Below are positions 6,044 through 57,855 of a stretch of DNA of 64,000 nucleotides, piece by piece. The DNA is taken from assembly GCF_000192575.1 (NCBI RefSeq), contig NZ_GL876926.1:1-64000 (forward strand), read 5' to 3'. The notes under the pieces were generated by a model. The model did not search any database. It worked only from the letters and a program-made list of their open reading frames with translations, and was not told the DNA's origin. The position numbers and the translations under genes were made by a program. The DNA is from Novosphingobium nitrogenifigens DSM 19370 (lineage in GTDB: Bacteria > Pseudomonadota > Alphaproteobacteria > Sphingomonadales > Sphingomonadaceae). Within the stretch, counting starts at the first letter, position 1. The number at the start of each line of letters is the position of its first letter.

Positions 6044-6670
6044 ATGTGCAACCTTTATCGTCTGAATAAACCTGCCGCTGACATTGCCCACTTGTTTGGT
6101 GTCGAAGCCACCCAAGGCGCCAATTATAGCGAAGAAGTCTATCCCGGTTATCCTGGGCTGGTGATGGCGGGGCGGCGCCTGAAGGTGATGAACTGGGGCT
6201 TCCCGCTCGTCATGACCGGCCGCAACGGTCAGAAACTCAAGCACAAGCCCGTCACCAACGCCCGCGACGACAAGCTGAGCACTGCCTTCTGGCGGGCCAG
6301 TTTTGAAAGCCGCCGCTGCCTGATCCCGGTCTCGGCCTGGGCCGAACCGGAAGGTGAAGCGGGGCAAATGACCCGGACTTGGTATTCCATCCCGAGCGGT
6401 GAGCCATTCGCGGTGGCCGGTCTATGGCGGGCTACCGAGGAATGGGGCGATGCCTACAGCATGGTCATGGTCGAAAGCTCGCCCCAGATATGCGAGGTTC
6501 ATGATCGTATGCCGGTGATCCTTCGTCAGGATCACTGGAAAACATGGATCGAAGGCTCACCACGGGAAGCCTTTGGGCTTTGCCGGACCTGGGAGGATGA
6601 ACTGGCCGTTGAGCAGACCGCGACGCGGTGGGCCGGGCGCGGCCTGATGGGGATGCTGCCGTTCGAGTGA
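6044..6670 (+). CDS. SRAP-domain protein (HMCES/YedK family abasic-site shield)
   Basis: 208 residues. The start is set at MCNLYR because SRAP proteins use Cys2 as the catalytic residue after Met removal. Family motifs are visible: MCNLY at the N terminus, NWGFPLV, NARDD (the conserved NAR-E/D loop), RRCLIPVSAWAEP, FAVAGLW and EVHDRMPVIL with the conserved His. These proteins form a thiazolidine crosslink to abasic sites in single-stranded DNA and so prevent strand breaks. It is divergent from a translesion polymerase, and the two together could protect single-stranded DNA entering during conjugation. Confidence 0.93.
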   Translation: MCNLYRLNKPAADIAHLFGVEATQGANYSEEVYPGYPGLVMAGRRLKVMNWGFPLVMTGRNGQKLKHKPVTNARDDKLSTAFWRASFESRRCLIPVSAWAEPEGEAGQMTRTWYSIPSGEPFAVAGLWRATEEWGDAYSMVMVESSPQICEVHDRMPVILRQDHWKTWIEGSPREAFGLCRTWEDELAVEQTATRWAGRGLMGMLPFE

Positions 6671-6773
6671 AGCATTGCGCCTTCGGGCATCGATCGACAC
6701 TCCCCCATGTGGCGAAGAGTGGAGGTGGAGGCGGCGGTGCGAGCAATTCCGCTCGCCCGAAAGGTTACGCCTC

Positions 6774-7124
6774 ATGCTCACCGACAGCGAACGCTTCGCC
6801 TTCACAGCCCGGCGCATTCACGGCTTTGCCAGCACAGGGAATGCCTATGACGCAACACAGACCGATGATCGGATCGCCAGCGGCGACACGCTGCTGATCT
6901 TGCCGGAGGGTGTTGTCGGCGTGGCCCATTGCTGGCCCTTCGCCGTCACGCAAGCGGCGGGCAAGCTCCATGGCGTTCAACCCAAGGCGCATGAAACGCT
7001 GGGCGACTTCGCCGCCGCTTTCAACCTGACCACCGCCGACATCGAGGCTGCCATCGCGCTGGCCCAAGCGCTCGGCTTCACTATCGATCCCGCGCTGTCC
7101 GCGCTCATTGCGCCCACCGCCTGA
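6774..7124 (+). CDS. Hypothetical protein
   Basis: 116 residues from the ATG at 6774. No known domain. The C-terminal half is Ala/Leu-rich and helical; the N-terminal half mentions no metal or nucleotide motif. A short perfect hairpin (GCGAGC/GCTCGC) lies in its leader at about 6739-6756. It starts a run of same-strand ICE genes. Confidence 0.55.
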   Translation: MLTDSERFAFTARRIHGFASTGNAYDATQTDDRIASGDTLLILPEGVVGVAHCWPFAVTQAAGKLHGVQPKAHETLGDFAAAFNLTTADIEAAIALAQALGFTIDPALSALIAPTA

Positions 7125-44292: not shown

Positions 44293-44510
44293 AAGCCCCT
44301 CGGCCCGCACAATATGGGCAAACGGTTGCATCTCCCTCGGGTCGCCGCAGCCGCAACGAATTGAGGAGTGCCAGACTATTCGCGAAGCGGCATAGGCGTC
44401 GCAAGCTGCCGCTGCAGATCGTGTCCCGGGACGTGGTGTAGGATCTGGCGGGTGGTCACCGTGCTTTTCGGATAGGTTTGGGTTGCGAAGCTCGAACCTG
44501 GAGAACCACG
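44293..44510. other. Tail of the lytic transglycosylase gene and IS left end
   Basis: No intact gene. Minus-strand codons for the last ten residues and stop of the transglycosylase lie at 44376-44408. Next come the 8-bp target duplicate (44409-44416) and the IS left end from 44417. Confidence 0.7.
44409..44416. repeat. 8-bp target-site duplication, left copy
   Basis: CCGCTGCA directly abuts the left IS end and recurs at 45781-45788 abutting the right end. Confidence 0.9.
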
Positions 44511-45780
44511 ATGACCGCTTCCATGATGCACCTGCGCGCGCTGGTCGAGAAGGCCCCTGACGCGGATATTTTGCGCGAGATGATCTCGTTTGCCGCCGGG
44601 CGTTTAATGGAGATGGAGGTCGGCGGCTTGACGGGGGCGGGCCACGGCGAGAAGTCCACTGATCGGCTTGTCCAGCGCAACGGCTATCGCGACCGCGACT
44701 GGCAAACCCGCGCGGGAACGGTGGAACTGCGCATCCCCAAGTTGCGCAAAGGCAGCTATTTTCCCGGTTTTCTGGAGCCGCGCCGGATGGCCGAGCGAGC
44801 GCTGACGGCGGTCATCCAGGAGGCCTATGTGCATGGCATCTCGACCCGTTCGGTCGATGACCTGGTCAAAGCGCTCGGCATGGACGGCATTTCGAAGAGC
44901 CAGGTCAGTCGCCTGTGCGAAGAGCTCGACGAGAAGGTCAACGCCTTCCTCGAACGCCCGATCGAGGGCGACTGGCCGTACCTTTGGATCGATGCCACCT
45001 ATGTCAAAGTCCGCCAGAACGGCCGGATCGTCTCGGTCGCGGTGATCATCGCGGTGGGCGTCAATAGCGACGGTCGCCGCGAAGTGCTGGGCATGGACAT
45101 CGGGCCATCCGAGGCAGAACCCTTCTGGACCGCCTTCCTGCGCAAGCTGACGCGCCGGGGCCTGCGTGGGGTGAAGCTGGTGATCTCCGATGCTCATGAA
45201 GGCATCAAGGCGGCGGTGTCCAAGCTGCTGTGCGCAACATGGCAGCGTTGCCGCGTCCACTTCATGCGCAATGCGCTCGCCCATGCTGGCAAGAGTGGCC
45301 GGCGCGTCGTCTCGGCATTCATCGGCACCGCCTTTGCCCAGGACACGCCTGAGGCAGCCAGCCAGCAATGGCGTTCCGTCGCCGACCAGATGCGCCCAAA
45401 GCTCCCGAAACTGGCGACTTTGATGGACGATGCCGAACCCGACGTGCTGGCCTACATGACCTTCCCAAAGGAACACCGCGCCAAGTTGCACAGCACGAAT
45501 CCCATCGAGCGCCTCAATGGCGAGATCAAGCGCCGCACCGAGGTCGTGGGCATCTTCCCCAACGAGGCTGCGATCACCCGCCTGATTGGTGCCATTCTCA
45601 TGGAACAGTCCGACGAATGGGCCGTCCAGCGCGGGCGCTACATGTCCCTTGAAACCATGGCGCCGGTGAGCGACAATCCCATCGTCATGCTCTCGGCTGT
45701 GACCGGTGCATGATCGGCTCAAGCTGATGCCGAAATTGGCGGTGGCCCAGATAAGCTACACCACGCCGCGGGACACGATC
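44417..45780 (+). mobile_element. Complete IS256-family insertion sequence (1364 bp)
   Basis: Terminal inverted repeats of about 25 bases begin GATCGTGTCCCG at each end and agree at 23 positions (left 44417-44441; right 45756-45780). An 8-bp duplication, CCGCTGCA, flanks the element, and one transposase fills it. The intact ends and duplication indicate a fairly recent insertion. Confidence 0.92.
44511..45713 (+). CDS. IS256-family (Mutator) transposase
   Basis: 400 residues from the ATG at 44511, with GGAGAA upstream. Family motifs: [46 protein letters not shown] with the first catalytic Asp, [13 protein letters not shown] with the second, [13 protein letters not shown], and [27 protein letters not shown] with the catalytic Glu. 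Full length with no frameshift, so the element is probably active. Confidence 0.97.
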
Positions 45781-46518
45781 CCGCTGCATGGTCACCAGAA
45801 TGCTCGAGACGTAGTGAATGGTCTCGGTGATGCGGGGCACCCGGCCTGTTGCCCGTACGCGGCCTGCGCCAGCATTGTAGGCGGCCAACGCTAGGTCAAA
45901 GCGGCCGAATTCATCGAGCAAGCCGCGTAGATAACGGGCCCCGGCACGCATGTTCTCACGCGGATCCAGGATGTTGCGAACTCCCAGAATACGAGCGCTG
46001 GCCGGCATAAGTTGCGCGAGGCCAGTCGCGCCCTTGGGGCTGATCGCTATAGGGTTGTATCGACTTTCCTGGATGATGAGGGCGTCGAACAATCGAGCGG
46101 GCACGCCCGCCTCGCAAGCGGCGGCTACCATACTCGAATACCATACGGCGCGACGGCGCTCGGCCTGGCCTGGCAGTTGCGGACTGGGTACATAAGGCTC
46201 TGCCAAACAAGGCATCGGATCAGTGGGCAGTTCGTCGCGGAGGGTTTTCTGCCGTCGCGAAGCTGGGATTGCCCGGCGCGGTTTTTGACTGCCATCCGCC
46301 ACGGGCAGTTTGTGCTCAACCATGCTGGTGAAATCGTCCAGTAGCAATGAGGCAGCACTACCATGCTTCCCATCATGATCGGGGACACGGAGGGCAAACG
46401 ACTGGAACTTGCCTGCTGAACTGTCAAAGTTCTCCAGGGTGACACTCTGCGCGGCGAGCATCGACGGGTAAGCTGAAGAGCCGATCATAGCGGCAAGCAG
46501 CAGAAATCTAAATTTCAC
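45685..46518 (-). CDS. VirB1-like lytic transglycosylase, 3' end replaced by IS insertion
   Basis: 277 residues as it now reads, but the IS begins at 45780, so residues after codon 246 come from the IS. Removing the IS and one target copy restores a gene ending QLATPMPLRE and a stop at 44376-44378, i.e. 256 residues. The protein has a signal peptide, then a soluble lytic transglycosylase domain: [13 protein letters not shown] (catalytic Glu), [12 protein letters not shown] and [14 protein letters not shown]. Such enzymes open peptidoglycan for the secretion channel. Only ten residues are lost, outside the catalytic core, so activity may remain. Confidence 0.9.
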
Positions 46519-46631: not shown

Positions 46632-49337
46632 TCAAATCTTGGTGCCGTAACGGGCGACAAGACCCGCCAAAGTTGCGTTCTCGGTTACAGCTTGGTCAGT
46701 TATCAAGGCATATTCCCAAGGTTTGCCATCCCCTTCTGCCGCAAATTCATTGGCATGTTTGATCCACTCGGCGGCAGCTCTCGCCTTTTCCTTGACAATG
46801 GGATCGTCCATTTCCCGCTCAGCCTTGATCTCTGCGATCAGTTTCCGATCGGAAAGCTCAACGACGAAATCCGGTTCGTATGGCTTACCTGGCTGGTATT
46901 CGATGCGGAATTGATTGCGCGCCGGCTTGAGCCAACGGATCACGTCCTTCTCAAATTCGCTGTCGATCAAAACGGCAAACCGGCGCTCAGGATCAGAATG
47001 GAATTTGTGAAATTTGTAAGGGCTCTTTTGCCCCCCACGAAACGTGTATCCCGGCGTTGCTGAAAGTGGATTAGCGGCCTCTGTCAGCAGTAGCGATTTG
47101 GCAGGTGAATACGCAATATTCTGGGGTTCAAGACTGCGGAAAGACCGAACCTTGGTTGCGCGATATTCTGCCGGTGTCTGCCGGTAATGTTGCTTCATTT
47201 GGACCATGATGCGCTGCGCCAAGGCCTTGCCCTGGGCCAGCGCGACATTTTCGACATCGTCTTCACTTTGCAGGTAGCTGCGCAAGTGATCCACCATTTG
47301 CCCCGCCAGCTTATACAGCAGGTCGGCCTGGCTATCATAATCGACCTCAGGATAATCCATGAGGAAGCGCACGATGTAATTCTCGATCCGATCCTCTCGT
47401 GGTCCATCCAGGGCGCGCGCTAGTTCGCGCTGGGTTTGATCGCGCAGATTTCGTACCAGCAAGCGATCCGAGATAGGCTGGAACCGAATGTCGCTGATCC
47501 CCGAAAGGTCAAAATCCTCGAACCAGAAATTGACCTCACGGCTTGGCAGAACGACGATTTCTGGAATTTCGATGCTGTTATCGGCGATGCTGGCGGTCAC
47601 GACAGCGACCAGTTGATCGACATCAGGCTGGACGACAATGCCCTCCAGCGTGCCCTGTCGAGCCTTTGAAATCCGGCGAACGTCCTCAGCAATACGCTTT
47701 TGGACTTCGGGGCTTTTCAATTCCTTGTGGCCACCCTTGAGCTCGCGCTCATACTTCTCGCGGATAAGATCGATGGTCAACTGAGCGACCTGTCGGTCTT
47801 CGGGTGTTTCAAAGATGACCGGCGCTAGTACTTCGCGAACCTTGTCGTCGTCATCAGGAACCTGAGGGGCTGAGCCAGTCAGCGCGGCCTCGAAAGCCGT
47901 GGGTACAGTCAGCACCGTCTGTGGCGCGGTGGTGATGTCCCCCCCTTCGCCGATCGTGTATTCCTTGATCTGGACGATCGAATCCGCTTCGCGTGCCTTC
48001 TTGATGACCTCGTCAAACCGATCATGCGCGATCACGGTTAGTGTATCGACCGCCTCGTTCCCCGTCCGCTCGCCGTAGGGCAAGCGCAGACCACGCCCAA
48101 GCGTCTGCTCGGTCAGGATGTCTGACGCTGAAGCACGCAGCGGCACGATTGTATACAGGTTGGTGACGTCCCAACCTTCCTTCAGCTTGTTGACGTGGAT
48201 AACAATATCGGTGTCGCCAGCTTCTTCCAGACGAACCAGACGCGACATGGCATCGTCGCTTTCCTCACCCTTCAGGTTTGAGTGAACTTCGATCACGCGC
48301 CCCTTATAGGCCCCCTTGAAGAACTCCTCGCTCTCGATCCGCGCCTTCAACTTGCCTGCATGGGTTGTGTCCTGCGCTACGACGAGCATGAAGGGGAACA
48401 CCCGCTTACGTCCGGTCTGCCGGGCATAAAGCTCCAGTTCGGTCTTCACGAACTCATGATAATGAACCCCGTCCTCAAGCATGATGGCTTCAAGGCCATC
48501 AGGGTCATAGTCTTTGGGATTGAAGTCGGCGCGGGTCGCAACCGCAGGCTCCTTTACAAAGCCATCCGCCATGGCGTTGCCCAAGCCATAGTTGAAGATG
48601 ACGTTGCGGAACTCTTTGTTGGTCCCCACCGCTTTCGGCGTTGCGGTCAGTTCGAGACCCAACTTGGGATTGAGTTCGAACAGGGTCTTGGCCCCAGCCT
48701 TGGCGCGATAGCGGTGCGCCTCGTCCATCAACAGTACCAGATCGGGCAGCTTTGACAGGTAGTCGAAATAGCTGTCGCCCAGGGTCTCCCGGAAGCTACG
48801 GATTTTTCCGCCTTCCTTGTTGATCTTGTCGACGTTGAAGATGTTGATGATCGCCTCTGAGCCGAACAGGTCGGCGCCGCGAATGCCGCGCCCTTCCTGC
48901 CACGTATCGCCGGTGACGATCACCGGCGGCGTCTGGGCGAATTGCGAGATACCGCGGAACACGTATTTGGGCGAGGATTGCTTGGAAAAATCGGCAATCA
49001 GCTTGTCATAGATCGTGGTGTTCGGCGCCAGCACGAAGAAATTCTTCGAGCGGCCGGACAGATAGAGATAGGCAATGAAGGCCCCCATCAGACGTGTTTT
49101 GCCCACGCCTGTGGCCAGCGAAAAGCAGACCGACGGGAACTCCCTCTCAAAATCGGCAACGGTCGGGTATTGGGCTTTGATCGCCTCCAGCAACGCCACC
49201 GGATCGGTCTCAGCGCTGAAGTCCATATGGCTCAGCACATCCCCAAGGATCGACAACGAGTTTTCCTGCGGCGCGCGCAGTGAAAGGCGCTGGGCAATCT
49301 GACGCCGGATGCGGGCTTCGTTCACCGGCTCACTCAT
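46632..49337 (-). CDS. Type III restriction-type helicase-nuclease Res
   Basis: 901 residues from the ATG at 49337, overlapping the mod stop. Walker A ATGVGKTRLM at 75-84, motif II LMDEAH, LTATP, then helicase motif VI LTEQTLGRGLRLPYG. The C terminus has a PD-(D/E)xK-like nuclease site: YEPDFVVELSDRKLIAEIKAE. This is the layout of type III Res proteins, which cut DNA after ATP-driven translocation in complex with Mod. It ends the operon. Confidence 0.9.
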   Translation of the reverse strand: MSEPVNEARIRRQIAQRLSLRAPQENSLSILGDVLSHMDFSAETDPVALLEAIKAQYPTVADFEREFPSVCFSLATGVGKTRLMGAFIAYLYLSGRSKNFFVLAPNTTIYDKLIADFSKQSSPKYVFRGISQFAQTPPVIVTGDTWQEGRGIRGADLFGSEAIINIFNVDKINKEGGKIRSFRETLGDSYFDYLSKLPDLVLLMDEAHRYRAKAGAKTLFELNPKLGLELTATPKAVGTNKEFRNVIFNYGLGNAMADGFVKEPAVATRADFNPKDYDPDGLEAIMLEDGVHYHEFVKTELELYARQTGRKRVFPFMLVVAQDTTHAGKLKARIESEEFFKGAYKGRVIEVHSNLKGEESDDAMSRLVRLEEAGDTDIVIHVNKLKEGWDVTNLYTIVPLRASASDILTEQTLGRGLRLPYGERTGNEAVDTLTVIAHDRFDEVIKKAREADSIVQIKEYTIGEGGDITTAPQTVLTVPTAFEAALTGSAPQVPDDDDKVREVLAPVIFETPEDRQVAQLTIDLIREKYERELKGGHKELKSPEVQKRIAEDVRRISKARQGTLEGIVVQPDVDQLVAVVTASIADNSIEIPEIVVLPSREVNFWFEDFDLSGISDIRFQPISDRLLVRNLRDQTQRELARALDGPREDRIENYIVRFLMDYPEVDYDSQADLLYKLAGQMVDHLRSYLQSEDDVENVALAQGKALAQRIMVQMKQHYRQTPAEYRATKVRSFRSLEPQNIAYSPAKSLLLTEAANPLSATPGYTFRGGQKSPYKFHKFHSDPERRFAVLIDSEFEKDVIRWLKPARNQFRIEYQPGKPYEPDFVVELSDRKLIAEIKAEREMDDPIVKEKARAAAEWIKHANEFAAEGDGKPWEYALITDQAVTENATLAGLVARYGTKI

Positions 49338-51018
49338 CGCCAGCCTCCCCGCCGAACAGGTCCATGGCATCGGGCTTGGCCTTGCCGCCGCGCCGGCCCT
49401 TCTTCGGAGCTTCATCCTCCGTAGGCTCGCCATCCTCCTCGGCCATGGGCAGGTTCTGGATGTTCAACGAATAGTCGTCACGGCCCCATTCGCACTTTTG
49501 CAAGATCGAGGTCGGGATCTTCACCAGGGTCAGATTGTCAAAGGCATCGGCCCTCGTATCGAACGCCTTGCAGCAAATCAGGAGGCTGCGGTCCGGGCCA
49601 ACATCATGCGCGATTTTAGCGCAGGCATCATGGGTCAGCGCCTGCGTCGTCACATAGATGAAATCGGTCTCCGTCGAGTGGCCGTGCCGCCAATATTCCT
49701 GCGGATCTTCGGCGGGAGCGTAGGTGAAGCCCATATGCTTGCACATGGCTTCGGCCAGCATCGCCGGATTGTAATCCTTCGCGATCACCCAGTTCCCGTA
49801 CTTGTCTTGCTCAAGCAGCGAAGGGGCTAAAGTGAAGTATCGGAAGCCGCCACCCCCCTTCCAATCAACTATCTTACTTACGCCACCTTGGTCAATTCCA
49901 TCCACTACCTTAACAAGGCGCGGCATTATGTGCGTAGTCGCGTGATCCCCAATTTCGACCATAATCCAGCGCCGTCCCATTTTATGGGCCACTGCTCCCG
50001 TCGTCCCAGATCCTGCAAATGAATCCAAAACAATATCCCCAGGACGAGTTGCTACCTCGAGAGCTCTTTGGACGATTTTCTCAGGCTTTGGGGTGTCGAA
50101 TGATTTTTCCCCTTCAAAAATCCCCTTCAGTTCTGCGCTCGCATTCCGTGTGCTGCCCGCAAAATCGTAAGGCCACCATGTCTGAGGAACGACACCATCC
50201 TTCACTTCGCTAAGAAATTTCTTCTCAACCGGGAAATCTGCATCCCCATCCTTGCCCCAATAAATTCTTTTTTCAGACTGAAGCTTGGTAAGCTCAGCGG
50301 GAGGACGACGCCAGGAACTACCTTTCGGTGGCCAAACATCTCGTCCAGCATCATTGGTCAGGGCATAATAATCCCTCTCGCGAAATTCAGCGCGCGTCAA
50401 AGGAGTGCCAAGCCACGCTCCTCGTGGATCATTGTCTGGGTTTTTATAATTTGCTACCTGCTTTTCACTTCGCGGTATCAAATAAGGCCTCCAAATCGCT
50501 GATTTTTTGAAGACCAACACCATATTGTGCGTCTGCGCAATCGTAGACGCATTGTTTCCTGGAGTATCCTTTGATTGCCATACAATATTGGATACGAAAT
50601 TTTCTCTACCAAAAATTTCGTCGCAAAGAATTTTCAGATAGTGAGATTCGTTGTCATCAATAGTAATCCAAAGTGAACCATCATCACTAAGCAAATTCCT
50701 GATTATTTCGAGGCGATCCCTCATCAAACTAAGCCAAATTGAGTGCTCAACACCGTCATCATAATGTGTGAAAGCAGACCCAGTATTATATGGAGGATCG
50801 ATAAAAATACACTTCACCTTGCCAGCATAATCCTGCTCCAGCGCCTTGAGCGCGAGCAAGTTGTCGCCCTTGATCAGCATATTATCGAAGATGTCGCCCT
50901 CACGCCGCACTTGTGCGTGATAGCTCTTCGAGGGGTCCTCGATCAGAATACGCGGCTCCAGCTTAGGGCGTTCATCCTTGCCGGGCCAGGTCAGTTCAAG
51001 CTTGGTCTTTTTGGTCAT
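49330..51018 (-). CDS. Type III-type DNA methyltransferase Mod
   Basis: 562 residues from the ATG at 51018, 20 bases after the preceding stop. Motif IV FIDPPYNTG precedes motif I VLDSFAGSGTTGAVA, the beta order of adenine-N6 Mod enzymes. A variable target-recognition region lies between. The C-terminal tail is Lys/Glu-rich with GGKAKPDAMDLFGG. It methylates one strand of the recognition site and provides specificity for Res. The target sequence cannot be read from the protein. Confidence 0.93.
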   Translation of the reverse strand: MTKKTKLELTWPGKDERPKLEPRILIEDPSKSYHAQVRREGDIFDNMLIKGDNLLALKALEQDYAGKVKCIFIDPPYNTGSAFTHYDDGVEHSIWLSLMRDRLEIIRNLLSDDGSLWITIDDNESHYLKILCDEIFGRENFVSNIVWQSKDTPGNNASTIAQTHNMVLVFKKSAIWRPYLIPRSEKQVANYKNPDNDPRGAWLGTPLTRAEFRERDYYALTNDAGRDVWPPKGSSWRRPPAELTKLQSEKRIYWGKDGDADFPVEKKFLSEVKDGVVPQTWWPYDFAGSTRNASAELKGIFEGEKSFDTPKPEKIVQRALEVATRPGDIVLDSFAGSGTTGAVAHKMGRRWIMVEIGDHATTHIMPRLVKVVDGIDQGGVSKIVDWKGGGGFRYFTLAPSLLEQDKYGNWVIAKDYNPAMLAEAMCKHMGFTYAPAEDPQEYWRHGHSTETDFIYVTTQALTHDACAKIAHDVGPDRSLLICCKAFDTRADAFDNLTLVKIPTSILQKCEWGRDDYSLNIQNLPMAEEDGEPTEDEAPKKGRRGGKAKPDAMDLFGGEAGDE

Positions 51019-51038: not shown

Positions 51039-52619
51039 TCAGTCGATTGTCTCGCCCGCGGTGGGAGTTTTGAACGGCAAGCCCAACCTCTTGGCCTTGC
51101 TGATAACGGCATTGCGGCTCGTGCCGCCCAACACTTCGGCAATCTGGGCTGCCGAGTGCCCGGAAAGCCACAACTGCCTGAGCATCTCCACCCGCTTTCC
51201 CGACCATGGGCCGCCATCGGTATCGTCAGACCAGCCATTGCCAATCACTGCCGCTGACGCCGCCATTCGCCGGTCCAGCAACTCCAATTCCCTGCGTGTC
51301 GCAGCCTGCGCCTCTTGATTGGCAAGGAACTTCCGCGAACCGGGGAAAAACTTCTTACTGTGCTCGATCAAATCTTCGAGTTCCGCGGCGAGCATGGCCC
51401 GCTTGACGGCCAGATCATCGCCGATCGCGGGCACTGCATGGGGCTTAATGATCGCGATTGAAGGCTTTTGCGGCGGCGTCTGTTCCGAGGCGCTCAACCG
51501 CTTTGGCAGGCCGAGCCGATAGGCTTTGCCGATCACTGCGTTTCGCTTGACCCCGCCCAACGTGCGGGCAATCTCATCAGCAGAAATGCCATCGGCCCAC
51601 ATCTGCTTCAGCGTCGCCAGCCTTGTCGGCGTCCAAGTTCCATTGGACTGATCGACCGTCTGCGGAGTTGGAGATTGTATCGCTACCGTTTCGCTCTTGG
51701 ATGGCGCGGCACTGACTGGATGAGCAGCCGGCGATGGCTTGGTGGCACTCTGAGGATCATCGGATGGGTCAATCTGTTTCGCTGCTTCCTTCGCTGCATT
51801 AGCGCGAAGAGCGGCACCGACTTTTGCGAGGACCGATTCGGCATCCTCAATTGGCGCCTCCGCCTCGGGTGCTGCCGGCGCGTAGAAGCTGCCCTCTATC
51901 CATGTCGGAGCAATGTCCCGCTCAGCTCTGGGATAACCTGAACGCCAACGGACCATGTAGAGCGGCTCAACCTCAATGAGCACATCCGTTCGGCGCCAAA
52001 GCAATTCTTCTTGGGCTTCGGCGCGGCGACGCAAGGCACTACGCTGGTCAACATAACGGGCAAGCAGATTGTCATTTTCTGCCTCAAGGTCAGCAATCAC
52101 AGCGTTGAGCGCGATTTGGGCCTCTATGCTGGTATCTGGCCGGCGCCGTCTCTGTCGCAAAACACCGATTTGATGATCCAGTTGCCTGGACTTCAGCTTC
52201 ACGGTGCGATCAAGCGCTTCGATCTCACGCTGAGATTGCTCATAAAACGCCCCCAGTTCCGCGTTTGTGGATCGTTGCCAGCGGGCATAGAAGGCGCCCT
52301 CTTCCTCACAGAGCATATCGTCCAGGATCTGAGGCGGCTCTTCGTAGCAATAATCGAGGCTACTCCATGAGCATTGCGTCAAGTGCAGGGCTCGCCAGGA
52401 AGGGATGACATTGTCCCGATCATCGCAGGCGACGATCAATGTCCGGCTCAAAATGTCCCGTTCACTTTGGATAGTCGCCTGGGCTGCCAGAAGCCAGCCA
52501 CGCTGCCCACGAAAGGCAGCGACATGCTTCCAGTCGCCTTCATAGGAACTGAAATCGAGTTCGAGGCTGATCGGGACCTGACCAATCTCGGGAATCATGG
52601 CGTTATGCAGCCATCGCAC
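51039..52619 (-). CDS. Coiled-coil protein with two GcrA-like DNA-binding modules
   Basis: 526 residues; an internal Met at 52598, just after the helicase stop, is an alternative start. Residues of about 120-210 are coiled coil and end in VEPLYMVRW. Two GcrA-type helix-turn-helix modules follow, at 329-374 (WTPTRLATLKQMW...RNAVIGKAYRLGLPKR) and 472-517 (WSGKRVEMLRQLW...RNAVISKAKRLGLPFK). They are separated by a disordered linker and a charged helix. GcrA binds promoters at GANTC sites methylated by CcrM. Finding two copies inside a restriction-type operon is unusual; a role in reading host methylation is inference. Confidence 0.85.
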   Translation of the reverse strand: MRWLHNAMIPEIGQVPISLELDFSSYEGDWKHVAAFRGQRGWLLAAQATIQSERDILSRTLIVACDDRDNVIPSWRALHLTQCSWSSLDYCYEEPPQILDDMLCEEEGAFYARWQRSTNAELGAFYEQSQREIEALDRTVKLKSRQLDHQIGVLRQRRRRPDTSIEAQIALNAVIADLEAENDNLLARYVDQRSALRRRAEAQEELLWRRTDVLIEVEPLYMVRWRSGYPRAERDIAPTWIEGSFYAPAAPEAEAPIEDAESVLAKVGAALRANAAKEAAKQIDPSDDPQSATKPSPAAHPVSAAPSKSETVAIQSPTPQTVDQSNGTWTPTRLATLKQMWADGISADEIARTLGGVKRNAVIGKAYRLGLPKRLSASEQTPPQKPSIAIIKPHAVPAIGDDLAVKRAMLAAELEDLIEHSKKFFPGSRKFLANQEAQAATRRELELLDRRMAASAAVIGNGWSDDTDGGPWSGKRVEMLRQLWLSGHSAAQIAEVLGGTSRNAVISKAKRLGLPFKTPTAGETID

Positions 52620-55485
52620 TTTCGGGGCGACTTGAACCAGCAGCCACTGTCCACCGCAGCGTGAAAAGCGGCTGAATCGTTGGCTTCTGATTCAACTGGT
52701 CGGCAAATTCATCAAGCATGTCCTCAACTTTTCGTCGGGCGTCTTTGCGGCGCTGGAATTTGGAAAGCTTGATGTCATCAACCTCGTTCTCCATCCGCTT
52801 GATTTTTCGTGTAATTTCAATCTTGTCCTGCATAGAGGCATCAGCCGCACGCTTCTGCTTTTTCAAGTCTTTGATCTCGGCTTCCAGCGCAGCAATTTGC
52901 GCATCGAGTTCGACCTCAACGTCCGCTGCATACCGATCGAGCCGGTCACTCTCTGCCTCAAGCCATGCCTCATTTTCCTTGAATACGCGGTCAGAAAAGC
53001 TGCCAAAAAGCCCATCTCGGATGCCCGAAAGGCGTGGCTCGTCCGGTTGCTGAGTTTCGACACCCAGATCATCAGCGGGGGCAAGAAGCAATTGATCGGC
53101 CACCTCGGCCTTGATCGGTTTCCCATGGTCATCAACACATGCGATCAGCAATTCTTCCCGCAGGGCATTGGCGGACGGCATCACCGCCTTGAACACCTGC
53201 ATCCAACCGGACTGCCCCACAAGACCACGAGCGGCGCCAAGCTGGCCGCCATATGGGAAGCTTTCCGGCTTGAACCGGACCTTGACAATCTGACCGGTGT
53301 GATCGCGGCTTTTCGCGGCTTCGACCAACTCGGCGCCCAGCCCTTCGTTAACTCGAAAAAACTGCCAATCACGTTCGTCTGCTTGTGGCCACTCGGTCGT
53401 GTAAGTCTGGCCGTTGATCGTGAAGACTTCCGAACCTGGATGATCGAATTGCGCGTTGGCAAGCTCGGCATGGGCTACCATGAGTAGCCGTTGGCGATAT
53501 TCCGGAACGACGCGCTGCAATTCCTTACCGCGATCCTGAAGCTTTGAAACGACGGTAGCATCCATCTCGCCAAGCAACTTGTTGCGCGCGGCTTCAAATG
53601 CTGCATCGATATGATCTTGAATGCGAGATTTTAACTCGTTGAATTCAAACTCGATTTGATCCGGCGTCCGCCCCTCTTGGACGATACGCAAGACTTCCTT
53701 CTCGAAGTCAACGCCGCTCATCAGAGTGCCGAGAACCTCGTCGCTGGCACCAAAAACGCCTTCAAACAGATGGAACTTTTCACTCAAAAGTTCATGGATG
53801 CGCTGCTCGGTCTGATTGGTGAGATCGAGCATGTTGACGACAGTGACGTCGATCTTTTGCCCATACCGATGGCATCGCCCAATACGCTGCTCCACACGCT
53901 GTGGATTCCACGGTAGGTCGAAGTTGACCAGCAACGAGCAAAATTGAAGATTGATACCTTCAGCGCCGCTCTCGGTGGCGATCAGGATTGCCTTCTCGTC
54001 GCTTTTGAAAGCTTCTACGATAGCCGCCTTCATATCGGCGCTCTTCGAACCGGAAACCTTGTCCGTCCCTTTATGGCGGGCGAGCCATTCAGCATAAATC
54101 CGACGACTTTCGTCATCAGAATTGGAGCCATTCATCAACACGACCTTGCCTGCATAGCCGTGCGTATCCAGCAAATCCCGAAGGTAACGCTGGGTTCGAA
54201 CGCTTTCAGTAAAAATTACTGCCTTTCTTGTGCCGCCCTTCGCATGGATCTCATCCATGACCTGCGGCAGACGCTTGAGCAGTTCCTCGCCCTTGGCATT
54301 CTTGGCAATGGATTGGGCAAGTGCAAGATAGCTTTGCAGCTCAAGGATTTCCGCCTCGATCATCTCAGGCGTGATATGGACATCATCGTCCTCATCTTGG
54401 TCCTGATCGGATTCCTCGATTGTCGTACCAAAATCCTCAATATCATCCGTCATGCTCAAGGATGCAGCTTTTCGACGCTGCAACCGCTCAATCAGTGCTT
54501 CGAGATATTTGGCAACTGCGAAACTTGAGGAACCCAAGATCTTCCGAACTTGCAAAACGACCAACTGGTTAGCGCGGTCCCCATATGAAACTGTATCCGT
54601 GCGTTTCAAAAAAGTCGAAAGCTGCTCATAGAGATCTCGCTCCGGCTGCGAGGGATCGAAATGAAAAGTCTTCGCATTTCGCTTCGTGAAGCTGATGTGA
54701 CCAGCTTCCTGCACCTGCCGCCTCAGCGACCGGTGACAAATGGGCTTGAGCCTGTCGCGGAGAACGTCCAACGCTGCTGACGATGCGCCACTACCTGCAT
54801 ATTGTGCCCGAAATGCATTTTCGCCGCCAAAGTGCTCATCATCAATTATTGAGATGATGCCGTATAGCTCCATCAATGAGTTCTGAAGCGGCGTTGCGGT
54901 TAGCAGGATCTTGAAGTGATCCTGCAGGGCATCTTTGAGGTCTTTCGCTCGGGCAGAGCCCCCCTTGCGATAGACGTTGCGAAGGCGATGAGCTTCATCG
55001 AAAACCACCAAATCCCAGCGGACTTGTCGCAAATCATCAGCTTTCCGGGCGGCAAATTCATACGAGACGATGACAATGCCATCCACAGCTTCGAACGGTC
55101 GGCGATTTCCAGCCTGCCGTAACGCACGATAGGTGGTCGCTTCGATGATCTCGCTGCGAAGCGAAAATTTCTCGTAGAGTTCTTGCTGCCATTGCTTTCG
55201 AAGCGAGGCGGGAACAATCAAAATCATTCGCCGCCGATGTTCGGCCCAGCGCTGTGATAGTACCAAGCCGGCCTCGATGGTTTTGCCCAAACCGACTTCA
55301 TCTGCCAGCAGCACCCCCTTTGAAAGCGGAGACTTGAGCGCAAACAGAGCTGCGTCAACCTGGTGAGGGTTCATCTGAACTCTTGCGGAGGTCAATGACC
55401 GTGTAAATGCACTATCATCGACACCTGCCAGGGTGATTTTATGAGCCTGATAATGCGCTTGAAGAGAAGTGTACAAAGCTCTCAC
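52603..55485 (-). CDS. SNF2-family helicase of defence operon
   Basis: 960 residues from the GTG at 55485. Helicase motifs: LLADEVGLGKTIEAG, VVFDEAHRLRN, ILLTATPLQNSLMELYG, then ESGAEGINLQF, LLVNFDLPWNPQRVEQRIGRCHRYGQ. The layout is RapA/HepA-like. A C-terminal coiled coil of about residues 850-935 ends PTIQPLFTLRW, which resembles the end of the coiled coil in the next gene. SNF2 translocases occur in several defence systems, DISARM among them, but I see no DrmA, DrmB or DrmC here. The next gene overlaps its 3' end by 17 bases. Confidence 0.92.
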   Translation of the reverse strand: MRALYTSLQAHYQAHKITLAGVDDSAFTRSLTSARVQMNPHQVDAALFALKSPLSKGVLLADEVGLGKTIEAGLVLSQRWAEHRRRMILIVPASLRKQWQQELYEKFSLRSEIIEATTYRALRQAGNRRPFEAVDGIVIVSYEFAARKADDLRQVRWDLVVFDEAHRLRNVYRKGGSARAKDLKDALQDHFKILLTATPLQNSLMELYGIISIIDDEHFGGENAFRAQYAGSGASSAALDVLRDRLKPICHRSLRRQVQEAGHISFTKRNAKTFHFDPSQPERDLYEQLSTFLKRTDTVSYGDRANQLVVLQVRKILGSSSFAVAKYLEALIERLQRRKAASLSMTDDIEDFGTTIEESDQDQDEDDDVHITPEMIEAEILELQSYLALAQSIAKNAKGEELLKRLPQVMDEIHAKGGTRKAVIFTESVRTQRYLRDLLDTHGYAGKVVLMNGSNSDDESRRIYAEWLARHKGTDKVSGSKSADMKAAIVEAFKSDEKAILIATESGAEGINLQFCSLLVNFDLPWNPQRVEQRIGRCHRYGQKIDVTVVNMLDLTNQTEQRIHELLSEKFHLFEGVFGASDEVLGTLMSGVDFEKEVLRIVQEGRTPDQIEFEFNELKSRIQDHIDAAFEAARNKLLGEMDATVVSKLQDRGKELQRVVPEYRQRLLMVAHAELANAQFDHPGSEVFTINGQTYTTEWPQADERDWQFFRVNEGLGAELVEAAKSRDHTGQIVKVRFKPESFPYGGQLGAARGLVGQSGWMQVFKAVMPSANALREELLIACVDDHGKPIKAEVADQLLLAPADDLGVETQQPDEPRLSGIRDGLFGSFSDRVFKENEAWLEAESDRLDRYAADVEVELDAQIAALEAEIKDLKKQKRAADASMQDKIEITRKIKRMENEVDDIKLSKFQRRKDARRKVEDMLDEFADQLNQKPTIQPLFTLRWTVAAGSSRPESAMAA

Positions 55486-55509: not shown

Positions 55510-55911
55510 TTATTTCTTCGACCAAAACCGAAATAATGAAATTCGGCCAAATTTCCCCTCCGCCCTATCTATAAGCCATATCGGCAAAAGGAGCGAGATG
55601 AAGATAATTGATATGGTTTTGATTTCAAATATTTTTGAAAAGTAGGCGATGATCAAGGCAAATAAGGAGAGTGATGCAATTAACAAAACTGTGCGCTTGG
55701 CGAAGGCCAAGCTTTGGGGAATCTCTTCAAACGTGAGGAAGTGCATTTCTTTCACACGCTGACGCTCCGCATCAAGCTCTGCCTGCTTGCGACGCATTTC
55801 TTGCCGAAGCTCAAATCGATCGGCCATCAATTTTTCAATTGGAGGATTCACTTCCTTCAAGGCCACAAGCAAGCGCTCATCAGTAATCGATGTCAGTCGA
55901 TCTTCAATCAT
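55510..55911 (-). CDS. Small coiled-coil membrane protein in defence operon
   Basis: 133 residues. Helical N-terminal 60 residues (LMADRFELRQEMRRKQAELDAERQRVKEM) precede two membrane segments (TVLLIASLSLFALIIAYF and IISIIFISLLLPIWLI-like). It starts one base after the regulator's stop. Membrane proteins in defence operons are often effectors; this one has no known family. Confidence 0.7.
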   Translation of the reverse strand: MIEDRLTSITDERLLVALKEVNPPIEKLMADRFELRQEMRRKQAELDAERQRVKEMHFLTFEEIPQSLAFAKRTVLLIASLSLFALIIAYFSKIFEIKTISIIFISLLLPIWLIDRAEGKFGRISLFRFWSKK

Positions 55912-55912
55912 A

Positions 55913-56305
55913 TCAAGCGCTCAACGCAAAAATTTTCTCACTCATCGCAGGACTGATCTCGCCATGCTCAAGAAGATATTGAAACAAGGCCCCCCCGAGC
56001 TTGACCAAAGCCTCTTTTTCGACATCGTCACCGCCGCGACTTAGATAAGTCCAAGCGGTTTCTATTGAGCGCGCATATGCTTCATCGAGGCCGGCTTGAT
56101 CCGGTCGGCCCTCACCAGTCAAAACCCATGCAGCGCTTACCTTATAGCGCTCTGCGAAGCCCAGAATGACGCTGGCAGGCGGCTCTCGCAGCCCCTTTTC
56201 ATAATTCACCAGCGCCCCGTGCGAAATCCCAAGCTCCGAGGCGACATCGGCTTGGTTCAGGCCGAGTGCCTTTCGGATCTCCAGAATTCGCCCTCCGATG
56301 CTCAT
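55913..56305 (-). CDS. XRE-family regulator, first gene of defence operon
   Basis: 130 residues from the ATG at 56305, preceded by AAGGGGA. The N-terminal HTH is RILEIRKALGLNQADVASELGISHGALVNYEKGLREPP. The C-terminal helical part may sense or dimerise. It probably controls the operon; palindromes at 56339-56352 and 56373-56396 are candidate operators. Confidence 0.9.
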   Translation of the reverse strand: MSIGGRILEIRKALGLNQADVASELGISHGALVNYEKGLREPPASVILGFAERYKVSAAWVLTGEGRPDQAGLDEAYARSIETAWTYLSRGGDDVEKEALVKLGGALFQYLLEHGEISPAMSEKIFALSA

Positions 56306-56338
56306 CCAAAAATTCCCCTTCCAAGGGCCTTGACGAAT

Positions 56339-56352
56339 CTCACATATGTGAG
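56339..56352. promoter_or_regulatory. Perfect palindrome CTCACATATGTGAG
   Basis: A 14-base perfect palindrome 34 bases upstream of the XRE start in an AT-rich segment; likely operator of the defence operon regulator. Confidence 0.65.
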
Positions 56353-56509: not shown

Positions 56510-56716
56510 ATGACTTCACGCCGCAGATTGGTGCCATTGGCAGAAATTCAGCAAGCCTATGACTGGTGGACCAGCTTGGGCCACACGGCCGCTGGCGTCG
56601 ACATTCGCGCCGATGGCGTCACCTTCATCCCCCCGACCACCCAACCAGTTGGAAGTGCATTCGATGCGTGGAAGGCAAAAGACCAGGGTCGTGACCGGAC
56701 TGCACATAGTCGGTAA
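56510..56716 (+). CDS. Small protein preceding integrase
   Basis: 68 residues from the ATG at 56510. It begins MTSRRRLVPLAEIQQAYDWW, a helical, basic start reminiscent of small excision or regulatory proteins, and its 3' end overlaps the integrase start. No family recognised; a recombination directionality role is possible. Confidence 0.55.
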   Translation: MTSRRRLVPLAEIQQAYDWWTSLGHTAAGVDIRADGVTFIPPTTQPVGSAFDAWKAKDQGRDRTAHSR

Positions 56717-57710
56717 GCGATCTGCCAAAGGCTGCATATGGTACGTCTATGCGTGGCGTGGCGGGCCCTGCATCCACAAGGCATTTGGCGAGCGGCCGGT
56801 GGTCGATCTGGCCCTCATCATGAAGGCAGAGAAGGCCCGTTCCCCAACCAAGGGGGCACTTGCAACCCTTGACGATGTTCTGGATCGCTATCGCCAAAGT
56901 CCCGAATTCTCAAAATTGGCCGAGAGCACCAAGCGAGATTACCGTCTGTGGCTGGATCGCATCAGCGAAAAATTCGGCCAAGCGCCAATCGCTGCCTTTG
57001 AAGATCAGCGCATGCGCACCGAGATCATCGATTGGCGCAACACGTGGGCAGATCAGCCGCGCACCGCCGACAAAGCAAGCGTCACAATGGCCACCGTTCT
57101 TGGCTGGGCGCAGGGCGAAGGCATCCTCCCGGTCAACATTGCGACTGGGATTCGACAACTCCATCATGTCAACAAAGCCGACCAAATCTGGGAGGACAGG
57201 CACTGGGAGGCCATGCGAGGCAGCAAGGACAAGAATGGTCGCTCCCTCTATTCCGACCACCTGGATCGCGCCCTGCGCCTTGCGAGCCTAACCGGCTTGA
57301 GATTGGGAGATCTGGTTCGCGTTGCCTGGGAAGACGTAGGAGAAAAGGCCATCATCCTGACCACCCGAAAGCGCAAAGGGCGAGCCATCATACCAATCCT
57401 CCCTGACCTTCGCGGGTTGCTAGACTCCATTGGCACTGGGGCAGGCCCAATCCTGAGAAACAGTCGCGGCGAGCCTTGGACCGAAAGCGGACTGGGAAGC
57501 GTGTTCCAGAAGGCCAAACCTGATGGCTTCGACCGCACCATGCACGACCTGCGTGGGACCTATGCAACCTGGCTCGCCATGCGCGGGCTGACCGATGAAG
57601 AGATCGCGCGAACCATTGGCTGGACGGCCAAACGGATCAGCGAAATTCGCAGCCGATACGTCGATGAAGCACGTGTCATTGTGTCGATGGTGGAGCGCCT
57701 CAGCGCCTAG
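56691..57710 (+). CDS. int: Tyrosine-type site-specific integrase
   Basis: 339 residues from the GTG at 56691; an ATG at 56664 is an alternative. A SAM-like core-binding domain (residues of about 55-150) is followed by the catalytic domain: SLTGLRLGDLVRV (first Arg), RTMHDLRGTYATWLA (His-x-x-Arg) and IGWTAKRISEIRSRYVD (nucleophile Tyr). The second conserved His is not seen as such. The gene runs toward and ends 69 bases from the 3' end of tRNA-Met, as expected for an ICE integrated there. Confidence 0.93.
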   Translation: MTGLHIVGKRSAKGCIWYVYAWRGGPCIHKAFGERPVVDLALIMKAEKARSPTKGALATLDDVLDRYRQSPEFSKLAESTKRDYRLWLDRISEKFGQAPIAAFEDQRMRTEIIDWRNTWADQPRTADKASVTMATVLGWAQGEGILPVNIATGIRQLHHVNKADQIWEDRHWEAMRGSKDKNGRSLYSDHLDRALRLASLTGLRLGDLVRVAWEDVGEKAIILTTRKRKGRAIIPILPDLRGLLDSIGTGAGPILRNSRGEPWTESGLGSVFQKAKPDGFDRTMHDLRGTYATWLAMRGLTDEEIARTIGWTAKRISEIRSRYVDEARVIVSMVERLSA

Positions 57711-57778: not shown

Positions 57779-57821
57779 TGGTAGCGGAGGAGGGACTCGA
57801 ACCCCCGACACGCGGATTATG
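57779..57821. other. Presumed element attachment site within the tRNA-Met 3' half
   Basis: The integrase gene ends on the 3' side of the tRNA, and tyrosine integrases of ICEs usually recombine within tRNA 3' ends, keeping the tRNA intact. The crossover core should be an identical repeat at the other end of the element, which is outside the window, so its limits cannot be set. Confidence 0.5.
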
Positions 57822-57855
57822 ATTCCGCTGCTCTAACCAGCTGAGCTACTCCGCC
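57779..57855 (-). tRNA. tRNA-Met (CAT)
   Basis: 77 nt including an encoded CCA. The acceptor stem pairs GGCGGAG with CTCCGCT. The D-arm contains AGCTCAGCTGGTTAGAGC. The anticodon loop is ATCATAA, with CAT at 57819-57821 flanked by GCGGA/TCCGC, and the T-arm contains GGTTCGAGTCC. The body looks like elongator tRNA-Met. Confidence 0.95.

Follow-up and report, generated by a model that had tools for sequence, protein, structure and literature searches.

Why a gene inside a restriction-type operon should carry the DNA-binding domain of a cell-cycle regulator is the question raised by a locus in the first 64,000 nucleotides of contig NZ_GL876926.1 of Novosphingobium nitrogenifigens DSM 19370, a stretch that was analysed whole and is here called the window. 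GcrA is a sigma-70 cofactor and cell-cycle regulator that binds promoters methylated by CcrM, the alphaproteobacterial cell-cycle methylase, which methylates GANTC. An earlier note on this DNA, made from the letters alone, had described two GcrA modules (residues 329-374 and 472-517) fused to a coiled coil in a restriction-type operon, had known of no description of such a fusion, and had suggested that it could tell host from foreign DNA or tie restriction to the cell cycle. The observation is confirmed and its interpretation is partly supported: Pfam finds both modules at coordinates within 3 residues of those claimed, an AF2 model bears out the coiled coil (helices 91-151 and 158-202, ATG numbering), family searches identify a SNF2-like ATPase, Mod and Res in the operon, and no description of the fusion was found in the open-licence literature searched.

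The open reading frame (51039-52619, minus strand) encodes 526 aa from a GTG, and an ATG at 52598 is the likelier start, which gives a product of 519 aa (51039..52598) that we refer to as the accessory adaptor. Its N-terminal half (51939..52598), characterized by BLASTP, hhalign and AF2, consists of beta strands and an antiparallel coiled-coil hairpin; it is followed by GcrA-type module 1 (51507..51638; residues 328-371, GTG numbering), a conserved helical segment with an FFPGSRK motif that is seen in the AF2 model (51240..51425), and GcrA-type module 2 (51078..51209; residues 471-514, GTG numbering), all on the minus strand. Module 1 occurs at this locus only and module 2 is common to five relatives. 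The AF2 model, built from 8 sequences, has a mean pLDDT of 73 and a low pTM of 0.38, and places three-helix domains at both module sites, where the means over 10-residue blocks are 72-92.

The C-terminal modules are GcrA-type DNA-binding domains. The adaptor matches the Pfam family GcrA (PF07750) in two stretches (111.6 bits, with the cut-off at 26.9; E 5.9e-32), and when the whole genome was searched with this family both stretches were above the cut-off (E 8.3e-17 and 6.3e-14), which excludes chance. With phmmer, GcrA entries alone (2 distinct sequences) were matched among PDB sequences at E<=1. Comparison of folds agrees with the claimed likeness to GcrA: the PDB structure that Foldseek ranks first is 5yiv, the DNA-binding domain of GcrA on methylated dsDNA (probability 1.00, 62% identity in 45 aligned columns, 0.8 A, TM 0.95 on the target), and ranks 2 and 3 are also GcrA. 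The E of this match, for a short domain in a 519-residue query, is 3.7e-3, and no match was as low as 0.001; it covers one of the two modules because one alignment is given per chain. No unrelated HTH of comparable fit was present among the best 50 of 416 Foldseek matches. Homeodomain-like HTH families were rejected as an alternative identity, with HTH_23 (18.1 bits) and HTH_20 (16 bits) below their cut-offs, against 111.6 bits for GcrA over the whole protein. Phage families also match the modules, the best being phrog_16311 of unknown function (55.7 bits, two stretches), more weakly than GcrA.

What the adaptor shares with GcrA, by sequence and by fold, is the DNA-binding domain, whereas positions 91-148 of the GcrA profile (sigma-interaction) are unmatched in the adaptor and matched in the genome's own GcrA, and the adaptor scores 103.9 bits with the NCBIfam GcrA model (cut-off 280). 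Its DNA-binding domains are situated in the middle and at the C terminus, unlike the N-terminal domain of GcrA, are fused to a coil domain that resembles the tail of the SNF2 ATPase, and differ from GcrA at near-invariant positions. Since the sigma-interaction domain is unmatched, sigma-70 co-activation by the adaptor is unlikely.

Conservation within the modules was assessed against 34 true GcrA domains, comprising a non-random set of 30 (the best-scoring loci of 149 Sphingomonadaceae genomes), the genome's own GcrA, that of Caulobacter and two plasmid-borne ones. Conserved positions, i.e., those kept in at least 90% of these 34 domains, number 29 of 44 and are defined by the same domains, which by construction keep 27-29 of them; the window modules keep 24 and 23, and the modules of relatives 21-23. 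In the recognition helix, R32, A34, V35, I36, K38 and R41 are retained in all seven modules and N33 in six. Changes relative to true GcrA affect E5 (5/7 modules), I7 (6/7), S21 (7/7), Q22 (6/7) and H40 (7/7), and as S21, Q22 and H40 are conserved in 94%, 97% and 100% of the true domains, their change means that module specificity may differ. Mean identity to true GcrA is 56-60%, compared with 79% for true GcrAs among themselves. Identity is 55% between the two modules and 64% between module 1 and the GcrA of Caulobacter, on which grounds a recent plain duplication of module 2 was rejected. A tree of the 44 residues, too short to decide module origin, groups module 2 with four relatives (support 90, the fifth, L019, being unresolved) and places module 1 beside the GcrA of Caulobacter and a plasmid-borne one (support 78).

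The N-terminal half, in turn, points to the neighbouring gene. BLASTP aligned it to the C-terminal domain of the adjacent SNF2 ATPase at 25% over 210 columns (E 8e-8), and profile-profile comparison with hhalign, run without a coiled-coil control, aligned it to this SNF2 tail over 200 columns (97.8%, E 8.4e-13) that span the beta region and the final strand, beyond the coil. The AF2 models of the two proteins, compared by the order of their elements, share the succession of a strand, two long strands, a helix, a hairpin of two long helices and a final strand, with an extra strand before the hairpin in the SNF2 model only. Almost all VIA-align matches are to the coil hairpin (Z 9-11), and they are uninformative on the beta part. 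Judged by the sequence profile, with the models in support, the SNF2 ATPase's C-terminal domain was duplicated to give the N-terminal half of the adaptor; carrying a copy of its neighbour's tail, the adaptor would most simply be a partner of this ATPase. The duplicate went unmentioned in the earlier note and is new here.

The operon is read from the minus strand in the order HTH gene, small protein, SNF2-like ATPase, adaptor, Mod and Res. The HTH repressor-like protein (55913..56305, minus strand; HTH_19, E 3.5e-12) is likely a local regulator. Upstream of its gene, a perfect 14-base palindrome (CTCACATATGTGAG) is found at 56339-56352, and a GANTC site (GATTC, 56335-56339) starts at the palindrome's last base, with one base shared; the two together (56335-56352) are a possible methylation-sensitive operator. 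The small protein (55510..55911, minus strand), encoded upstream of the ATPase gene in the same direction, has a probable membrane stretch by eye and matched no family above cut-off in the family searches. The SNF2-like ATPase (52603..55485, minus strand; 960 aa) is DrmD-like according to family searches, and the adaptor ATG lies 4 nt past its stop. Mod, a Type III DNA methyltransferase (49330..51018, minus strand; PADLOC MTase_III, E 6.6e-213), shows the motifs DPPY and FAGSGTTG on inspection of its sequence, and its end is overlapped by Res, the Type III restriction subunit (46632..49337, minus strand, start inferred; PADLOC REase_III, E 8.2e-235), in which GVGKT, DEAH and PD-(D/E)xK-like motifs are recognized by eye.

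The region also bears signs of mobility. A tyrosine integrase (56559..57710, plus strand; PF00589, E 4.7e-8) marks the end of an element and adjoins a tRNA-Met (57779..57855, minus strand) at the upstream end of the operon region; this tRNA is the probable insertion site, and a second copy of its end was not found within the window. In 2-kb blocks, the GC content is 50-58% across 46-58 kb and 58-66% in the other blocks. Conjugation families (TrwB, TrwC, TraG, TraH, TraC and TrbI) were recognized in six of the ten proteins scanned elsewhere in the window, at 18-41 kb, and the operon therefore looks like the cargo of an integrated conjugative element. Beside the operon, at 44478-46518, a Mutator-family transposase ORF (plus strand) and a lytic transglycosylase ORF (minus strand) overlap at 45685-45713.

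With a Mod of Type III kind and a Res helicase-nuclease both recognized by PADLOC, the operon appears to be a Type III restriction-modification system with an extra ATPase, of the Eco86II kind, and restriction as well as one-strand methylation of an asymmetric site are predicted for it. Type III systems in which mod is preceded, on its 5' side, by the gene of an additional SF2 helicase-like ATPase have been described, among them Eco86II (E. coli NCTC86) and BspHIV, and this ATPase accompanies Mod and Res in over 500 genomes (Murray et al. 2021, PMC8259958). The extra ATPase of Eco86II is reported as not required for methylation and of unknown role, and the authors infer that it is also not needed for cutting, because none of its peptides was present in the active fraction (PMC8259958). 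The window SNF2 protein is 38% identical over 989 columns (613 bits) to an NCTC86 SNF2 protein whose gene is directly 5' of a mod-like gene and a helicase gene, and which we infer to be the extra ATPase of that system. The window differs from Eco86II in that its SNF2-mod slot is taken by an adaptor gene with GcrA modules, and the Res of NCTC86 is not recognizably similar to the window Res. E. coli TUM1881 resembles the window in Mod (60% in two blocks) and Res (43%) and differs in that Abi and AIPR genes fill the SNF2-mod slot.

Two other defense systems invite comparison. The window SNF2 protein is DrmD-like (NCBIfam 631 bits, PADLOC DrmD 638.3 bits), as in DISARM, but remains below the NCBIfam DrmD cut-off of 950. 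Among the matches listed, DrmA, DrmB and DrmC are the best PADLOC family of none of the six operon-region proteins, the one DrmA match falling on the SNF2 protein (153.7 bits vs its 638.3 for DrmD), and the other operon proteins best match Mod, Res, HTH or no family; membership in DISARM was rejected on the sub-threshold DrmD score and on the ranking of DrmA/B/C. As for MADS, no MAD models are among the NCBIfam matches listed for six window proteins; the related core in E. coli has an HTH gene labelled MAD1, the sole MAD label there.

Relatives of the adaptor come from three sources. Scanning 84,980 species genomes for a pattern yielded 57 candidate stretches, of which seven were confirmed as loci; a profile run against 397 Sphingomonadaceae genomes detected the coil half in five, two of them new loci; and a plasmid added one further locus, so that, with duplicates merged (L012 with L021, L013 with L017), 11 distinct loci including the window are available, all from Sphingomonadaceae. 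At 5/397 Sphingomonadaceae genomes, the coil family is rare. An initial family search with the N-terminal half matched 5/298 genomes, G212 and G215 through SNF2 tails only, and a class-wide search matched 2/385, namely this genome and a marginal match inside the coil (E 6.3e-4). The mid helix plus module, used class-wide, matched 237/385 genomes; among the matches listed, the window's own is the only one to start before model position 45, and the rest are GcrA domains. A pattern scan of viral contigs yielded seven stretches and no adaptor relative, and a search of phage records with the adaptor yielded one record with a GcrA-like stretch only.

In all 11 loci the adaptor gene is immediately next to an SNF2 gene, at a distance of about 5 nt or less. 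Two GcrA modules are found in the window only, one C-terminal module in five loci (Sphingopyxis sp. 2PD, L017; Sphingomonas psychrolutea, L018; a MAG, L019; Sphingobium lactosutens, L020; Novosphingobium sp. HII-3, L023) and none in the other five (L021, L022, L030, L085, L086). A single C-terminal module is thus the usual state among bearers, and the tandem is not general. Sel1 repeats are present in one of the five module-free loci and neither domain in four; L085 (8597-10447, minus strand), from the window's own genus, has the coil domain fused to four Sel1 repeats in place of GcrA modules, with a C-terminal CxxC..CxxC ribbon-like stretch by eye, and L086 consists of the coil domain alone (about 254 aa). 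The reading frame is intact in all six bearers, and across them module 2 has the highest mean pairwise identity of all segments (63%), followed by stretches of the N-terminal half (55%, 51% and 56%), the mid helix (45%), the C tail (40%) and the linkers (27% and 20%). Because five of the 11 loci do without a module, the operon core does not need one.

Several further features of these loci deserve mention. A motif like DLPKASPxLRKLA precedes the mid helix in six of eight coil proteins (alignment columns about 315-335) and is absent from the window adaptor, in which module 1 occupies that region. Between adaptor and mod, Pfam identifies DUF3800 at L021 (10233-10973) and Bro-N at L022 (10076-10960), and at L018, a locus with a GcrA module, an ORF in the same place (6218-7117) has a start like that of the L021 gene by eye. 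In Sphingopyxis sp. 2PD, a reverse-transcriptase-like gene by eye (L013, 3595-4530) is directly upstream of the SNF2 gene.

Beyond the coil family, 12 of 50 plasmid records matching the ATPase were read, including the coil-family plasmid L030. A methyltransferase and a Res-like helicase gene are downstream of SNF2 in ten of these; a Thioclava stretch has neither, and a Hymenobacter stretch has the methyltransferase and no Res before the stretch ends. Occupants of the SNF2-mod slot include an AAA ATPase accompanied by DUF4276, AIPR together with VapC, Abi and a PLD-like ORF, and the slot can also be empty; given this variety, the GcrA adaptor is one occupant of an accessory slot. The PLD/NgoFVII-like ORF, on a Roseomonas plasmid (L033, 11745-12899, plus strand), is absent from the gene table. 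In two sphingomonad SNF2-Mod-Res operons without adaptor (L014 and L015), the slot is filled by what looks by eye like the gene of an AAA/SMC-like ATPase, and L014 has one more gene, of 599 aa. The core of the operon is already described, a point that the earlier note also missed, and its new part is the duplicated-tail adaptor with GcrA-type readers.

Whether there is a CcrM mark to be read was addressed in the same genomes. A full-length CcrM homologue is present in this genome (626 bits) and in all nine other coil-family genomes covered (598-619 bits; the L030 host was outside the set), scores that are below the NCBIfam CcrM cut-off of 830, which the Caulobacter control run with the same tool likewise did not reach. 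These homologues presumably methylate GANTC. They are present in coil-family genomes with or without a GcrA module, so that their presence does not discriminate. GANTC is depleted relative to a dinucleotide expectation, with nine sites observed vs 48.2 expected in the operon and 44 vs 210.8 in window positions 1-46000, about one fifth in both. Zymomonas mobilis belongs to the same order as the window's genome. In that organism, 99% of GANTC sites are methylated (PMC8432527). From the CcrM homologues, the GANTC depletion and the methylation in Zymomonas, it is very likely that methylated GANTC exists in the host and is sparse, which does not imply that the modules read it. Among phage records, 165 matched CcrM, none covering 80% of the query.

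We propose that the adaptor binds into the SNF2/Type III complex and bears an exchangeable tether, in the window a GcrA-type reader of CcrM-marked DNA, an account that we consider as apt to be right as wrong. The N-terminal half, originating from a duplication of the SNF2 tail, probably docks onto the ATPase or its partner, and the GcrA-type modules, by their fold and conservation, would bind DNA. Their target is most likely the CcrM site GANTC in its methylated state, with about an even chance, and reading of this mark is plausible given the CcrM homologue and the largely kept recognition helix; the GcrA proteins of Caulobacter, Brucella and Sinorhizobium bind best to fully methylated GANTC probes (PMC3667746). 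The adaptor would thereby tether the SNF2/Mod/Res machinery to CcrM-marked DNA, and the tether would be replaceable, relatives having one GcrA module, Sel1 repeats or nothing recognized. As to direction, we speculate by preference that the adaptor labels the host's DNA as self, where it would hold back restriction or favour modification; the mirror image would be recruitment to attack marked phage DNA. This account is favoured by the GcrA domains, the SNF2-tail homology, the SNF2-adjacent gene in 11/11 loci and the standing of module 2 as best conserved segment, and disfavoured by the changes at S21, Q22 and H40, the module-free loci, the rarity of the family, the apparent dispensability of the Eco86II ATPase and the low pTM. 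A more far-reaching version, tentative and somewhat doubtful, is that a restriction system reads a chromosomal epigenetic mark made by another enzyme, with modules on a SNF2-tail scaffold that bind CcrM-methylated GANTC, perhaps hemimethylated and newly replicated. The modules would then let the Type III machinery recognize the host's DNA, or show it at which time in the cell cycle to act, and the scaffold would serve as a common mount for interchangeable sensors (GcrA, Sel1 or none).

The evidence just cited can be read in other ways. The adaptor could hold and its modules be a general or differently specific DNA tether, independent of GANTC and m6A, as the systematic changes at E5, I7, S21, Q22 and H40, the lower identity to true GcrA (56-60% vs 79%) and the replacement of the GcrA tether by Sel1 repeats would suggest; however, six of seven modules retain the R-N-A-V-I-x-K-x-x-R core and no other segment is as well conserved as the module, and we regard this reading as unlikely, if worth serious attention. 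Module numbers of zero, one or two across 11 loci might instead mean that the modules are functionless, neutral passengers of a shuffled mobile element, which is scarcely credible when, within one set of proteins, module identity is 63% and linker identity 20-27%, and when frames are intact in 6/6 bearers.

Homology to GcrA, together with the GANTC site at 56335-56339 that shares a base with the palindrome upstream of the HTH gene, could also make the adaptor a transcription regulator that ties operon expression to the cell cycle or to methylation by CcrM. Positions 91-148 of the GcrA model, which cover sigma interaction, are unmatched, though, and the 400 bp upstream of the SNF2 gene contain GANTC in 4/6 module-bearing loci and 2/5 others, with no positionally conserved site upstream of the operons among the 11 loci; for these two reasons, transcription control is rated minor, and the suggested link to the cell cycle is not supported. 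An adaptor that duplicates the SNF2 tail and is encoded within the operon suits a subunit better, and the operon already has its own HTH gene, so we rate such a regulator as improbable. Less probable still is a built-in brake, in which the duplicated tail competes with or inhibits the SNF2 ATPase and the GcrA domains only localize it: the homology of the N-terminal half to the tail and the relative made of the coil domain alone (about 254 aa) would fit, but a cooperating subunit is equally compatible with them.

If the modules of the adaptor do read CcrM marks, a restriction system would take its self/non-self cue from the host's cell-cycle methylase and not only from its own Mod. The adaptor also offers a handle on the role of the extra SNF2-like ATPase in hundreds of Type III systems (PMC8259958), as a probable natural partner built from the ATPase's own tail could serve as a bait protein or a genetic switch.
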